64,000 nt of DNA from Thozetella sp. PMI_491 (lineage: Eukaryota > Ascomycota > Sordariomycetes > Chaetosphaeriales > Chaetosphaeriaceae), in the NCBI GenBank assembly GCA_021432635.1, contig MU270043.1, positions 310,001-374,000 on the forward strand, in the 5' to 3' direction. Position numbers and translations under genes: made by a program. Positions 18,445 to 52,423 of the stretch are shown one piece after another; the stretch's first letter is position 1, and each line of letters begins with the position of its first letter. The notes under the pieces are model-generated. The model ran no database searches and was not told where the DNA came from. It worked only from the letters and a program-made list of their open reading frames with translations.

Positions 18445-19181
18445 CGCTCANNNNNNNNNNNNNNNNNNNNNNNNNNNNNNNNNNNNNNNNNNNNNNNNNN
18501 NNNNNNNNNNNNNNNNNNNNNNNNNNNNNNNNNNNNNNNNNNNNNNNNNNNNNNNNNNNNNNNNNNNNNNNNNNNNNNNNNNNNNNNNNNNNNNNNNNNN
18601 NNNNNNNNNNNNNNNNNNNNNNNNNNNNNNNNNNNNNNNNNNNNNNNNNNNNNNNNNNNNNNNNNNNNNNNNNNNNNNNNNNNNNNNNNNNNNNNNNNNN
18701 NNNNNNNNNNNNNNNNNNNNNNNNNNNNNNNNNNNNNNNNNNNNNNNNNNNNNNNNNNNNNNNNNNNNNNNNNNNNNNNNNNNNNNNNNNNNNNNNNNNN
18801 NNNNNNNNNNNNNNNNNNNNNNNNNNNNNNNNNNNNNNNNNNNNNNNNNNNNNNNNNNNNNNNNNNNNNNNNNNNNNNNNNNNNNNNNNNNNNNNNNNNN
18901 NNNNNNNNNNNNNNNNNNNNNNNNNNNNNNNNNNNNNNNNNNNNNNNNNNNNNNNNNNNNNNNNNNNNNNNNNNNNNNNNNNNNNNNNNNNNNNNNNNNN
19001 NNNNNNNNNNNNNNNNNNNNNNNNNNNNNNNNNNNNNNNNNNNNNNNNNNNNNNNNNNNNNNNNNNNNNNNNNNNNNNNNNNNNNNNNNNNNNNNNNNNN
19101 NNNNNNNNNNNNNNNNNNNNNNNNNNNNNNNNNNNNNNNNNNNNNNNNNNNNNNNNNNNNGGGGGGGGGGGGGGGGGGGGG
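18403..19181. other. Assembly gap flanked by G homopolymers
   Basis: A run of 42 G (18403-18444) is followed by CGCTCA, then 710 N (18451-19160), then 21 G (19161-19181). The gap removes the start of the Ddi1 gene and its promoter. The flanking G-runs may be true homopolymer or sequencing/assembly artefact. Confidence 0.95.
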
Positions 19182-45664: not shown

Positions 45665-46151
45665 ATGTAAGTGCTGTGCAAACCTGGAGATAACCGCCCA
45701 CCTATCACCAGCCCCTGGACGATCCTCCTGGGACGTCATATGTGCCCCATATCACGTCGCCGCTGTTTTATCTCTCAGCCCAGGCGATAGTGGGAGGGTG
45801 GGCAATAATATCCCGGGAGCCTCCCACTGCAACATTGATATAGTTTATATCCACATAACTGGGACCGCAAGCTAAGGAAGCAGAGCAAGAGAAGGAAGAA
45901 AAAAAAAGTTTTCATTATTTACTTACATTTTGTTGCGGATACAGGCGCTCCAGCCCTCTTAAGTGCCAGCGTTCCATGCTGCTGCCACCCACCCTGCGAA
46001 ACCGATGCACCACCAATGAGATGGACGGCTCGTTCCACATGTCTACGACCACTACCGTCACCGAGCTCGACTTGAGCAACCCGTGCCAGCCGGGGTCCAT
46101 CGTGGACAGGATCAACGCGGTGCCTGGCTTGAAGACAAGCACTGGTGAGTG
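45665..46151 (+). CDS. Hypothetical coding segment with split start codon
   Basis: The ATG is split by an intron: AT at 45665-45666, donor GTAAGTG at 45667, acceptor ATACAG ending at 45944, then G CGC TCC. The second exon (45945 onward) reads MRSSPLKCQRSMLLPPTLRN and later VTELDLSNPCQPGSIVDRIN, with strong G/C third-position preference like the real genes around it. Read straight on it stops at TGA 46149-46151 (71 residues). A donor GTGAGT at 46145 with acceptor CTCCAG ending at 46196 would instead remove a 52-nt T-rich intron and lead, in the same frame, through to the GNAT gene; an acceptor at 46639-46640 also keeps the frame. A CT-rich leader precedes it. I do not recognise the protein. 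It may be the true 5' end of the next gene or a separate small protein or upstream ORF. Confidence 0.45.
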
Positions 46152-46453
46152 AGCTTTTTTTTTTATTTATTTTTTTATTTTTTTTCCCCCCTCCAGGTCG
46201 CGTGGGCTTTATTTCGGGCTCGATTTTTGTCTTGTCTCTCCCTTTTTACGCGCCCCTATCCGCACACCGAAAGGAGTTTTTCGAATCGTCGCAGCCTCAG
46301 TGCCGACTCGAGGCCCCTTTTCCACCCTCTTCCCGTACCAACTCTCAGGGTTTGGTAGCAGCAAAACTAGAAAGCCTTGCCCCGATTTTTCTACGCCTCG
46401 GCCCAGCACGACCCCCGACTTGTTTGTCGGTTTTTTTTTGCTCTTCCCATTCG

Positions 46454-46464
46454 TATATAAATAT
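46454..46464 (+). promoter_or_regulatory. TATA-like box ahead of GNAT gene
   Basis: TATATAAATAT lies about 203 bases before the ATG at 46667, in a T-rich stretch. It suggests that the GNAT gene may have its own promoter, which would compete with the idea that the upstream exons are joined to it. Confidence 0.4.
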
Positions 46465-46666
46465 CCTACTCTTGGTTATCTTGCCTATACCGATCCTACT
46501 CCCGGCAGAGCTATTGAGTGCCTTGCGGGGGATCGGCATCCACTGCACCAGCATAGAGCTTCGAGCAAGCTCATTCCCGGGGAAAAAAACCAATTCTAAT
46601 AATCGTTTTCGTCTACTAGCCTTTTTTACATTTCTTCGAGCGAACCTCGTACTCCCGCCATCCGCC

Positions 46667-47485
46667 ATGTCATCCAACGTCTCGACGCCAAACTTCGGGC
46701 CCCAGCAAACCAGTGCCCCCGCCAATCTTGGCGCTCCAGCACCCACGGCTCCCGCCGCAACCAACGACGATGACATCCCGCCTCTGTACATTGGCGTCTT
46801 GGATAACCACGATGAGAAGGTCGATGCGCTCAAGCTCGTTGCCGACAGTGTGGCTCAGCAGCGCCAGGTCGCATCCCTGACCCTCGTTTTTCACCCGGCT
46901 TGCCTGGCAGCCTTGGCCGTCGGACTCGGCACAGCGTACCAGTTCGCTTGGGTCAAGCGGAACCACGACTTAGGCCTGACACTGTCGATGCTCAGCGGCG
47001 TTATAATGACGTACCTCTTGGCAATCCGCTACGTGGCCTCCCCGTACATCCGCCTCGCAGAGGAAATGAAGTGGTCCTGGCTAGTGGGAGAGGACGGCGA
47101 GGAGGATACCGTTATCGGGACGCGCTTTGGCGACGAGGTCATTGGCGCCCTGGTGCTCCGTCTCGAGCCGAACCCTGGTCTTGCCGGCAAGAAGAAGAAC
47201 CGCAGCCTGAGCCTCAAGGGCGGGCGGGGCGTCATCCGGGGCTGGACGACGCGCCTCCGATACCGCGGGAAAGGAGTCGGCGCCGACATGCTCCAAGAGG
47301 CTATACGCGTTACGCGCGAGAAGTGCGGCAAAGACGCTGCCGTCGGATTCGCGCAGGAGCACGCCAACAGCACCATGGTCCTGCCCGAGTTCTTCAACCG
47401 GCCGTTCAGGAAGCAGGAGCAGCGCGCTGCCAAGGCGCTCGACAAGGCGCTCGGTGACTGGGAGGGCGCGAAGCGCAAGAGGTAG
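46667..47485 (+). CDS. Membrane-associated GNAT-family N-acetyltransferase
   Basis: A single exon from ATG 46667 encodes 272 residues; the frame is open much further upstream (to 46145), so the start is not certain. After a disordered N-terminus (MSSNVSTPNFGPQQ) come two hydrophobic segments, LVFHPACLAALAVGLGTAYQFAWV and LGLTLSMLSGVIMTYLLAI, forming a hairpin membrane anchor. The GNAT core follows with GALVLRLEP, then the acetyl-CoA binding loop in RYRGKGVGADMLQEAIR, and a distal block VLPEFFNRPFRKQEQRAAKAL. This layout recalls the NAT8-like ER acetyltransferases of animals. Substrate is unknown; peptide or small-molecule amines are possible. Basic tail WEGAKRKR ends the protein. Confidence 0.8.
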   Translation: MSSNVSTPNFGPQQTSAPANLGAPAPTAPAATNDDDIPPLYIGVLDNHDEKVDALKLVADSVAQQRQVASLTLVFHPACLAALAVGLGTAYQFAWVKRNHDLGLTLSMLSGVIMTYLLAIRYVASPYIRLAEEMKWSWLVGEDGEEDTVIGTRFGDEVIGALVLRLEPNPGLAGKKKNRSLSLKGGRGVIRGWTTRLRYRGKGVGADMLQEAIRVTREKCGKDAAVGFAQEHANSTMVLPEFFNRPFRKQEQRAAKALDKALGDWEGAKRKR

Positions 47486-48315: not shown

Positions 48316-49117
48316 CTAGCGGCGGATACGTGCGGCGGCGTTTTTACCTGGCCGTACGACATAAGTGTCCGGGTCGAAGCCATAGATCGGGTTGCCGAGA
48401 CGGCGCAGCGAGAAGATGACCTATGACTGGGTGAGTACTGCACATGGCCAACCTACAGCGCCCCGGATGGACGGGGGGTCTCACATCAGTCACCGTCACG
48501 GTTTTCGCGTTTCGGTACTCGACATAGGCAGCACAGTCGGCTAGAATCTGTTGCACAGCGCAAGCGTTAGGCCCATTGAGGCGATAGTTGAGCGGGGAGA
48601 GAGCAGACCGTCCTGAGGCGCTCCTTCAAAGCGCTTCGGATGTCATTGTATATCATGGCCGAGAGGCGCTTGACTCCACCTCGCCGCGCCAGACGCCTGG
48701 GCCGTAGTGTTAGCGACTAGCAAGCATGTGTGGTGCACTACCAGGTTATCCAAAATAGGTAGGTAGGTTGGACCTGTGTACAACGAAGCTACCTATCATG
48801 GACTGGACAGGGCAGGAGACGTGGCTTGCCGGATATCGCCCTTGGCTAGGAAAGCTCGAGTGTCAGCTGACGCGCCCCTCGCCCGGTATGTTTGCTGGCC
48901 GACTTACTGATCCCATAGATCGTATCCTTGATAATTTTCCTGCGTTGATGCCCTTAGCAGCCGCAAAGGTTGGGGGGCTTTCCCCGCGGTCCAGAGAAAC
49001 TCACCGATGCCGTTTGACTCCGAGACTGATGTGTGTTTTGCCTTTGCCTTTACCCTTGGTGGGAATCGGCGGGCGGTGCCGACTAGGGCCGCCGGGAGGC
49101 GTGAAGGGCGTTGGCAT
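48316..49117 (-). CDS. Histone H4 variant, six coding exons with a microexon
   Basis: Exons: 49117-49005, 48939-48908, 48845-48830 (16 nt), 48696-48609, 48547-48485 and 48420-48316, giving 138 residues. No open frame shows the gene as a whole; it was assembled from splice sites. The protein opens with a Pro-rich tail, MPTPFTPPGGPSRHRP, then GKGKGK and VKRHRK as in H4, then IIKDTIYGITKGDIRRLARR, GGVKRLSAMIYNDIRSALKE, and AKTVTVTDVIFSLRRLG, closely tracking the H4 histone fold. It ends with a non-H4 tail PDTYVVRPGKNAAARIRR. Canonical H4 is 103 residues; this one has a replaced N-tail and an extended C-terminus, so it is a variant rather than core H4. The intron after the microexon starts GCAAGC, a GC-AG type. 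Skipping the microexon would break the frame. Neurospora is known to have an H4 variant (hH4v); orthology here is inferred. Confidence 0.85.
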
Positions 49118-49837
49118 GGTGGACGTCACCGATTCGATCGCTACAATACAAACGAGACACCGCAGTAGAGGACAGAGAGGCTGGTGGTTCTCCAAGAGAT
49201 GAAGCTATCCGGCTTGCTTGCAGAAGCGAGGTCGAGGGCTATTTATTCAAAATGTTACCGGATGAGTAGGTAAATACCCAGGGCGTGGCTGTCTTCCGGT
49301 TGGCGTGTTCAGTCTCTAGGCCGGTAGGCGCCAGGTGCGAATCAGTGGCTGGGGAGCTCCCAGGGTGGGGAAGTGACGGCTGAGTGCCTGACCAAATGGG
49401 GGGCGGGTGGCGGTATGGCAGGGTACCCTACTGGCTTCAGCGAGGTGGGGGTAGGGTGAGAGAACTACAAGACACCTGCAGGGCCTTGGCTGCCAGCGGG
49501 CTTGAGCCATAACGGGGAGCCTGTCAGCAACTGGGCAGCCTCTGCTGGCGATCTGTGTGGACAAACAGCCGCGGCACGATTGCATCGAAACAACGAGCGG
49601 GCACACTCGGGTCTAGCCAGGGCACTATTATTGTGCTCCCCACGAGAAGCCGTGGAGTCTGTCATTGCAGGAGGTATCTAATCAAAAGGAGCATTGTGTA
49701 CTTTGTACGGTGTCCATCAGGGGATCACATGCTTTACAATAACGAGCGTCAACGCCGATCCTGGCAGGGCCTCTAATTAGGGTACCCAAAAGACGCTACA
49801 GTCTTTCCACAATAATCGTCGTCTATAGGAGTGGGAA
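49118..49837. other. Intergenic stretch: H4 variant promoter, Svf1 3' end
   Basis: 720 bases between two minus-strand genes. No TATA box or other obvious element was seen. Confidence 0.45.
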
Positions 49838-51165
49838 TTAATCGACGATGAATGTGGCCTCGCTGAAGAGCTCGCCCTCCTCGGTGATCTCTTCGTCTCC
49901 CACCTTCAACTTGAGCGAGAGCTTCTTGTTGGGGAGGAACTGTGCATTCGGTCAGCGGTTAGCCTGGTGACGACGCACCAAAAAGGGTTCGGACGGCGGC
50001 TTACCTGGTAAATGTACGGCCGAGTGCCTGCTACGTTGCCCAGGATCTTCTTCACGAAGCCCGGCAGCTCCTCCATAACGTCGATCTTGTCCAGCAGACC
50101 GCCGAATGAGCCCTCGATGCTAGCGGTGACCTCCTTGCCGTCCTTGGCCGCCCCGGTCCAGGTGAACTTGATGTCGGTGGGGATCTCCCAGCCGTTCTCC
50201 TCGTCGAGGCTGGTCTTGACGTGCTCGGCCGTGCTGAGAGCGTTGGCCATGATGATCTCGCCGTCGACGGCGATGCCGCCGACGTTGACCTTGGTGAAGC
50301 CGTACGACTCCGGGGTGGTGTACTCCATCAAAATAGCCGAGTGCTTCGGGCCCTGGAAGTTGCAAAAGTTCCACTTGGCCGCCGCGTGGTGCGGCTTCAT
50401 GCCCTGCAGGGCATAGACGTAGAAGCCCCTGCCCTTTAGGTCCACCGGCCCCTCCTTGGTCAAGAGGGTGCCTTCGGTCACGCACCTAGGCCAGAAGGCA
50501 TGGCGCATCTTGCCCCAGGGGTTCGCGAAGTCGTCTCCAAACAGCGTGTTGCCTGTCTCGCCGATGTGGAAGCCCGGCGCCGTCCGGGTGATCTTGAGGT
50601 TGACGATGGCGTCGTCGTCGCAGTCTGATTTGATGGTGTAGTAGGTGCCATCTTCGGAGAGTTCCAGGGCGACGTGGTCGTCGTAAAAAGCCGTCATGTC
50701 ATCGCTGAAGCTGTTGTTGTTGAGGGGATTCGTGGACCAGAGATGGGGCTTGGAGCTGTCGCGGTAGAAGAGCTTCGCGTTGAACTGGCATGTTTTCCGG
50801 ACACCACTGCCGACGAGTATTAGCTAGCCGCCGTAGAGAGAGATGGGGAAGGGGGGTTGCCGCACGCGACGTTGCTGAAGATGACTTGGGCAAACAGCAC
50901 GAAGCCGTTCTCTCCAAAAAAGTAGAAAGTCTGGGATTCAACATTGGTTCCCTCGAGCGCCTGCCATTTAAGGTGTTCCCTCTTTAGCTCAGTGTAAGGG
51001 ACCGTCTTGGCCTCCTCGGCAACAGACTTGACCGCCTCGGGGCCGTGGATGGGCTCCGGGGTGCCAGCGGCGTCAGCCAGCCTGCACACGACAGCGTTAG
51101 GTCTCATCAGACGATGAACTCGCGCACCAGAGATTCACTCACTTCTGCTTCGCCCACTTGAACAT
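49838..51165 (-). CDS. SVF1: Survival factor 1 (Svf1), ceramide-binding protein
   Basis: Four exons: 51165-51143 (23 nt), 51081-50866, 50806-50005 and 49939-49838, encoding 380 residues. The first exon encodes MFKWAKQK, a short amphipathic start that continues [20 protein letters not shown]. Later blocks include [55 protein letters not shown] and [20 protein letters not shown], which match the Svf1 lipocalin-like fold. Yeast Svf1 protects against oxidative and cold stress and is reported to carry ceramides from ER to Golgi; the amphipathic N-terminus binds membranes. All introns are GT-AG and in frame. The C-terminus [15 protein letters not shown] is intact and length fits fungal orthologues. 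Confidence 0.93.
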
Positions 51166-51818
51166 GCTGCTGAATTTGGGAGTGTAGGAAGAGGTGGTCC
51201 GGTGTTCAGGTGGTGGAATGTGGAGGGGAAAGTTGGGTCGAAAAGTACAACGGCGCCGTAGCGGGGGTATCTTCGTCGCAGGTGGGCAGTGGCAAAGCTA
51301 GGTATTTCTCCAACGCAACCAGTTCGACCAAAAAAAAATTCGGCTGACACCCGCCTCTTTTTGACTCTTAAAGGACGAAAGGCTAGCTCGGAAGACTCGG
51401 AGTCGATCGACAAGGCTATGTTAGTAAAGCGAAGTCAGAATATAAACACCATCTGGTCTCGACAGATAACGTGTACGCGCTGAAATAACTGTGCCTCATG
51501 CTGGACGTCATCCCCCCATTTGGCATTCATGCCAACCAGCAGATGCGGCAGGGGTCTTCCTGGGCGCTGAGATTGGTCGCATAAACGCCCTACAAAGGCA
51601 GCGGCTCAGGGCTAAATGGACTGTGGTGGACCCTGCATCTAAACTGTGGGCTGGCGATAGCTTTCCGATTTTTTTTTTCTGCAATCCCCCCTTCGCAATT
51701 CCTTCAGCAGAGCTGCTCGCAAAACCACCGCGCGATTCGACCTATCGCACGCAATCCGGGTCGAAACCGACGCCAGTCACACAGCTCGAAGAAAGGTGCA
51801 TGTAGCTCAGCCGCAGCC
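51166..51818. other. Divergent promoter region (Svf1 / uL11m)
   Basis: 653 bases between head-to-head genes; it includes a T-run at 51670-51678. No named element recognised. Confidence 0.5.
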
Positions 51819-52423
51819 ATGTCGAAGGCGCGCGTAGCAGGCGGTGTGGACACGGTCATCAAGCTCATCGTGGGCGCTGGGCAAGCGAGTCCCAGCCCGC
51901 CGGTCGGGCCTGCGCTGGGAAGCAAAGGTGTCAAGTCGATGGACTTCTGCAAGGTTGGTCCCGCCTCCCATGAACCCTTCCCCCTCCTTCCCCCCCCCCC
52001 CCCCCTTTCCGGCACCAACGCCCGCGAGGTGTTAGAAACTTGGCGAGCTCCCTGTGCTGATAATTACCTCCTATTCTCGTCGCGCAGGAGTTCAATGCCC
52101 GTACCGCACACATCAACCCCGGCACGCCCCTACCCGTTCGCGTCACGGTCAGGCCCGACCGGTCGTTCCACTTCGACGTACGCACCCCACAAACGTCATG
52201 GCTTCTCCTCAATGCGGCGAATGTGCCCACAGGCAAGAAGGGCAAGAGGAAGGGCGCCAGCAACCCCGGCACCGAGACCGTGGGGACCGTTAGTCTCAAG
52301 CACATCTACGAGATAGCGAAGATCAAGCAGAGCGAGATGCGTCTGTCTGGGTTGCCGCTAGAGGGCCTTTGCCGGAGCATCATCTACCAGTGCAAATCCA
52401 TCGGCATCAACGTGGTGGCTTAG
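51819..52423 (+). CDS. Mitochondrial large-subunit ribosomal protein uL11m
   Basis: Two exons, 51819-51953 and 52088-52423, encoding 156 residues. Exon 1 encodes a start that aligns with bacterial L11 from [20 protein letters not shown] to GVKSMDFCK; exon 2 continues [19 protein letters not shown] and ends [20 protein letters not shown], as in L11. The [14 protein letters not shown] block is the hallmark of the L11 N-terminal domain, which touches the GTPase-associated centre of the large subunit. The protein is short-tailed at the N-terminus, so import information may lie in the first residues. The intron holds a run of 16 C (51990-52005). Confidence 0.95.

Follow-up and report, generated by a model that had tools for sequence, protein, structure and literature searches.

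The minus strand of the window, i.e., the whole stretch of 64,000 nucleotides that was analysed here, very probably carries at positions 49117-48316 a genuine gene, rich in introns, that codes for a histone H4 variant. Joining of its six exons gives a spliced model of 417 nt that codes for 138 amino acids with no internal stop (Table 1). Gene anatomy, homology to H4 and constraint at the protein level are all observed at this locus. We think that it is almost certainly the orthologue of H4E, known as hheA in Aspergillus nidulans and as H4v in Neurospora crassa, and that it codes for a divergent H4 from a six-exon gene. Since its exon sizes, its intron phases and its Svf1 neighbour agree with those published for H4E (PMC10878826, of which part was available), the gene joins a known family of histone variants. 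Of the original prediction, the gene itself, its microexon, its GC-AG intron and its longer tails stand, whereas the proposed loss of tail lysines does not, and neither does any novelty of the gene, because the published H4E gene model already has the 16-nt exon and this exon pattern (PMC10878826).

All positions proposed for the gene (48316-49117) and for the junctions around its microexon (48908, 48845, 48830 and 48696) were reproduced exactly, with the 138-residue frame intact. The remark that no long open frame reveals the gene was fair: the longest stop-to-stop frame that overlaps it on the minus strand has 93 amino acids, and the spliced protein stays below the cut-off of every Pfam model. 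The overlapping frames 48759-49202 (+), 48344-48625 (-) and 48904-49125 (-) were rejected as coding, as none of them matches a Pfam model at E 1 or lower. Four of the five introns are GT-AG and the third one is GC-AG. A branch-like motif (CTNA[ACG]) is present in all five, with its A at 11-19 nt from the 3' end. Scanning of 951 nt for YAG acceptors with such a motif upstream gave six sites, including the five acceptors of the model, a result that is not fully independent since the motif was chosen after the H4E introns had been inspected. For donors, the pattern GYRNGH gave eight sites in the same 951 nt, including four of the five in the model; the fourth donor, GTCTGC, was missed. This donor and the exact C-terminus are the weak points of the model. 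An extra C-terminal intron starting from 48348 (CAG/GTAAAA) or 48358 was also considered, but for none of the ten combinations listed did the range searched contain a branch-like motif. Therefore, the stop at 48316 was retained, with some doubt.

Table 1. Exons and introns of the H4E gene and its Svf1 neighbour, in window positions. Published sizes are from the available part of PMC10878826.
Feature	Positions	Strand	Description
Exon 1	49005..49117	-	113 nt; ATG in CACCATGCC context; Pro-rich N-tail, KGKGKGK, basic patch VKRHR; ends in phase 2
Intron 1	48940..49004	-	65 nt; GTGAGT...ACGCAG; phase 2
Exon 2	48908..48939	-	32 nt; published range 29-32
Intron 2	48846..48907	-	62 nt; GTAAGT...TCCTAG; CTGAC branch-like motif; phase 1
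Exon 3 (microexon)	48830..48845	-	16 nt; codes for (T)KGDI(R); published size 16 nt
Intron 3	48697..48829	-	133 nt; GC-AG (GCAAGC...GCCCAG); CTAAC branch-like motif, branch A 13 nt from the 3' end; phase 2
Exon 4	48609..48696	-	88 nt; published size 88; RLARRGGVKRLSAMIYNDIRSALKERLRT
Intron 4	48548..48608	-	61 nt; weak donor GTCTGC; CTAAC branch-like motif; phase 0
Exon 5	48485..48547	-	63 nt; published size 63 outside Eurotiomycetes
Intron 5	48421..48484	-	64 nt; GTGAGA...TCATAG; phase 0
Exon 6	48316..48420	-	105 nt with stop; end of histone fold and 19-residue C-tail
Svf1 domains, two frames	49999..50942	-	PF17187, E 3.9e-54; PF08622, E 2.3e-45 and 5.5e-6

We infer that splicing of H4E must include the 16-nt exon, because a direct join of 48908 to 48696, which skips it, breaks the frame and gives stops, and retention of either intron 2 or intron 3 has the same consequence. 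The mismatch of phases without the microexon had been anticipated, as had the filling of a hole at the TKPAIR segment of canonical H4: the block at 48845-48830 gives TKGDIR at canonical length. A different splice path, for instance through a longer exon 3 or from a GT donor, would lead to a somewhat different protein. The paths listed comprise 22 single internal exons of compatible phase and 15 direct joins free of stops, and some of them have GT donors. Nevertheless, we regard this as very improbable. Among all the listed paths, only 48845-48830 yields T-K-x-x-I-R (T-K-G-D-I-R for the canonical T-K-P-A-I-R) at canonical length. The block at 48824-48809, which has a GT donor, is also 16 nt long and keeps the length of the protein, but it reads TTSPAL, in which K, I and R of TKxxIR are missing, and the remaining listed paths insert or delete residues around the segment. 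Moreover, a 16-nt exon 3 is published for H4E, and the structure of hheA in A. nidulans was confirmed by sequenced RT-PCR products (PMC10878826). Dinucleotide shuffling of the 211-nt gap, in which only 16-nt blocks between AG and GT or GC were counted, produced a block matching TKPAIR at at least four of its six residues in 27 of 20,000 shuffles. Taken alone this is moderate evidence for the microexon, and it becomes strong because the published H4E exon model agrees with it.

The intron after the microexon is of the GC-AG type, as the original prediction had it. In the available part of PMC7072748, a figure of 98.7%, taken here to mean the proportion of splice sites that are canonical, is given for fungi, and in its table fungal GC-AG introns far outnumber AT-AC introns. 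According to these figures, the GC donor is uncommon but ordinary. The G at the end of the exon and the AAG at positions +3 to +5 of intron 3 would match a strong donor. This GC donor on intron 3 may distinguish the window gene from the published H4E; the main text of PMC10878826 contains none of the terms 'GC-AG', 'donor', 'splice' or 'microexon'.

That the protein has the fold of H4 was confirmed by searching PDB chains with the 138-residue model (phmmer), which matched histone H4 with a best E of 1.1e-28 over query residues 22-119. Matches up to E 0.001 comprise 93 distinct sequences, the best 60 of which are all named histone H4. The top Pfam match of the protein is CENP-T_C, which could point to another histone-fold protein of the CENP-T, CENP-S or TAF6 type instead of an H4 variant. 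However, its 14.8 bits are far under the cut-off of 28.1, and CENP-T_C is also the top-scoring model for this genome's canonical H4, which passes the Pfam cut-offs of CENP-T_C and TAF only. Considering also the names of the PDB matches, the exon pattern of H4E, a RRLARRGGVKR stretch that is identical to canonical H4 and the presence of a separate strong CENP-T_C match on contig C69, we give practically no weight to such a protein. The match on C69 (L001, G000:C69:159886-160203) is to the CENP-T histone fold with 80.4 bits and has one TGA inside, perhaps intronic; it is likely the kinetochore CENP-T of this fungus.

When the fungus's own genome (72 Mb in 157 contigs, with the window on contig C29) was searched with the H4E protein, six matches were obtained, which correspond to four exons of H4E and to two canonical H4 genes. 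The latter, on contigs C21 and C151 (L006 and L007), code for identical proteins of 103 amino acids without tail extensions and have, as spliced here, two phase-0 introns each, between G13 and G14 and between K31 and P32. The exon-intron pattern of H4E is unlike theirs. In the core, H4E is identical to canonical H4 at 49 of 87 residues. The same comparison gives pN 0.30 and pS 0.72, against means of pN 0.74 and pS 0.69 for codon-shuffled controls (n = 300), and the two canonical H4 genes, used as a yardstick, differ by pN 0.004 and pS 0.30. As dS between H4E and canonical H4 is 2.3-2.5, synonymous sites are near saturation, so that constraint since the split is seen for the two branches taken together, and part of it sits on the canonical branch.

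Relatives of H4E were also looked for beyond this genome. None of the 42 candidate stretches in viral contigs was confirmed. For genome contigs two of 250 were confirmed, and both were dropped as nearer to canonical H4 (94% over 103 residues and 92% over 62 residues to the H4 of this genome). These two, which lie in records titled as bacterial MAGs (L017, 1896-2204, and L018, 1926-2111), read as canonical eukaryotic-type H4, presumably due to eukaryotic contamination.

H4E was described by Flipphi et al. (2024, PMC10878826) as a variant of H4 that occurs in Pezizomycotina, some Taphrinomycotina and Glomeromycota. According to the available part of this work, introns 1, 2 and 3 of the type gene are in phases 2, 1 and 2, and its exons 2, 3 and 4 measure 29-32, 16 and 88 nt; phase-0 introns follow, which brings the total to seven introns. 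The exon between the conserved phase-0 introns has 63 nt outside Eurotiomycetes, whereas the type model in a figure legend says 60. The window gene, with its series 2/32/1/16/2/88/0/63/0 of phases and exon sizes, has the published pattern through the 63-nt exon, in line with the suggestion that it is an H4 variant like hH4v of Neurospora. Of the seven introns in the type model, the 3'-most ones have no counterpart in the window gene, which has five. Intron number was not treated as defining H4E, since intron gain and loss among taxa are reported for it (PMC10878826). With hheA of A. nidulans (AN12228) the window gene shares the H4 core, the longer and divergent N- and C-tails, the 16-nt exon 3, the 88-nt exon 4, identical phases, svf1 as a neighbour and the presence of a single copy beside two canonical H4 genes. 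It differs by having five introns instead of seven, without the Eurotiomycete intron that splits the 63-nt exon. The lack of this intron and of an additional 3' phase-1 intron fits the pattern of a Sordariomycete or Leotiomycete. The H4v of N. crassa (Hays et al. 2002) is the N. crassa orthologue of H4E according to PMC10878826, and the names hH4v or H4v also appear in the available parts of PMC6703697 (twice), PMC9505985 and PMC11082259 (once each). The 'third' H4 gene, with seven introns, had been reported in aspergilli by de Vries et al. in 2017 (PMC5307856). The expectation that automated predictors would misjoin such a gene is consistent with the A. nidulans gene model having been 'incorrect in the databases' (PMC10878826).

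An orthologous gene might also be decaying, having lost its expression or function in this species. The weak fourth donor GTCTGC and the GC third donor would suit such a gene, as would the loss of H4E in some lineages, e.g., Penicillium, and the absence of a deletion phenotype in A. nidulans (PMC10878826). Against these points, the six-exon frame is intact, every intron has an AG acceptor with a branch-like motif, the start lies in CACCATGCC and the protein is constrained with respect to canonical H4, and we consider decay quite unlikely.

In Aspergilli, hheA sits between nudA and svf1, and this setting is kept in Eurotiomycetes and Dothideomycetes (PMC10878826). Svf1 is the nearest recognised gene upstream of the window H4E among the frames scanned, and it lies on the same strand. 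In contrast to A. nidulans, nudA was not found near the gene: the genome's sole PF12780 match is on contig C53 and not on C29, and thus only the svf1 side of the published setting is seen. We take PF12780 to be a dynein heavy-chain domain. The downstream neighbour among the frames scanned, at 46133-47485 (+), has a weak GNAT acetyltransferase match (PF00583, E 6.3e-6) and is not dynein. Mitochondrial ribosomal protein uL11 is encoded at 51585-52423 (+) in two overlapping frames, and therefore its gene probably has an intron; the frame at 52064-52423 has its best PDB match in chain 6ywe_g (E 4e-62), from what we take to be a Neurospora mitoribosome entry. Elsewhere in the window, at about 18500-19100, two 250-base steps have a GC content of 0.000 and the following step has 0.252; this is most likely a run of N, corresponding to an assembly gap or a masked stretch.

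The tails of H4E are longer than those of canonical H4, as had been claimed, with 38 residues instead of 20 ahead of the K20 equivalent and 19 instead of 2 past YGF, although the exact C-terminus is uncertain. On the other hand, the N-tail was said to lack most of the usual pattern of acetylated lysines, and the composition does not support this: 5 Lys and 4 Arg precede the K20 equivalent, compared to 4 Lys and 3 Arg in canonical H4, the KGKGKGK run is present and K16-R-H-R-K20 is intact (VKRHR). The spacing of the lysines is altered, and the new element of the tail is a stretch rich in Pro, about 20 residues long, ahead of KGKGKGK. Published H4E tails are described as strikingly poor in Lys and Arg, which this N-tail is not; the trait was not treated as defining H4E because it is reported for A. 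nidulans and many, but not all, species (PMC10878826). The K16 equivalent is kept here; in many H4Es its place is taken by Arg or by a non-polar residue (PMC10878826). In the core, the changes K77N and R78A lose charge with respect to canonical H4 and A76R gains one; R67A and R95N also lose charge and F61R and E63R gain it, whereas K79, T80, D68 and Y72 are unchanged. The charges of K77 and R78 are lost next to a DNA-contact loop.

The H4E protein, which the window locus presumably produces, would keep the H4 histone fold and most likely pair with H3 in a minority of nucleosomes. Its Pro-rich N-tail, longer C-tail and altered core charges suggest that the stability of these nucleosomes and the modification of their tails may be different. 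In A. nidulans, H4E interacts with H3 in BiFC experiments, is localised in the nucleus, has a low protein level, is better expressed under nitrogen starvation at 37 °C and cannot replace H4.1 (PMC10878826). By analogy, H4E of the window fungus would be a nuclear, H3-binding protein of low level that could not replace H4.1, and it may also be better expressed under nitrogen starvation at 37 °C. The available part of PMC10878826 states no function for H4E, and no later work on its function was recognised, from titles and the first lines of abstracts, among the papers listed by the literature searches.

The conserved 16-nt exon, here with a GC donor and a longer third intron, could itself act as a regulated gate, by which splicing would be productive only under certain conditions, e.g., nitrogen starvation. 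Under most conditions the microexon would be skipped or its introns retained, which would break the frame and leave no H4E. A precedent for a microexon in a gene of a filamentous ascomycete is Xlr2 of Trichoderma virens (PMC11121469, available in part); its inclusion depends on glucose. We think that such a gate is quite unlikely for H4E, but, if true, it would explain the persistence of a fragile gene structure throughout Pezizomycotina as well as the scarcity of H4E protein.

H4 is deemed to be the most conserved histone. The additions made here to the H4E family are small, namely the GC donor after the microexon and the linkage to svf1 without nudA, and the overall picture of the family is unchanged. 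The window gene, of a kind easily missed by gene finders, provides an H4E that has a GC-AG intron beside the microexon, that has retained K16 and the basic patch, and that is linked to svf1 in a genome placed outside Eurotiomycetes by its intron pattern. In our opinion, an H4 variant that persists throughout a fungal subphylum, with no role known for it, poses a real question, for which each well-described orthologue is of help.
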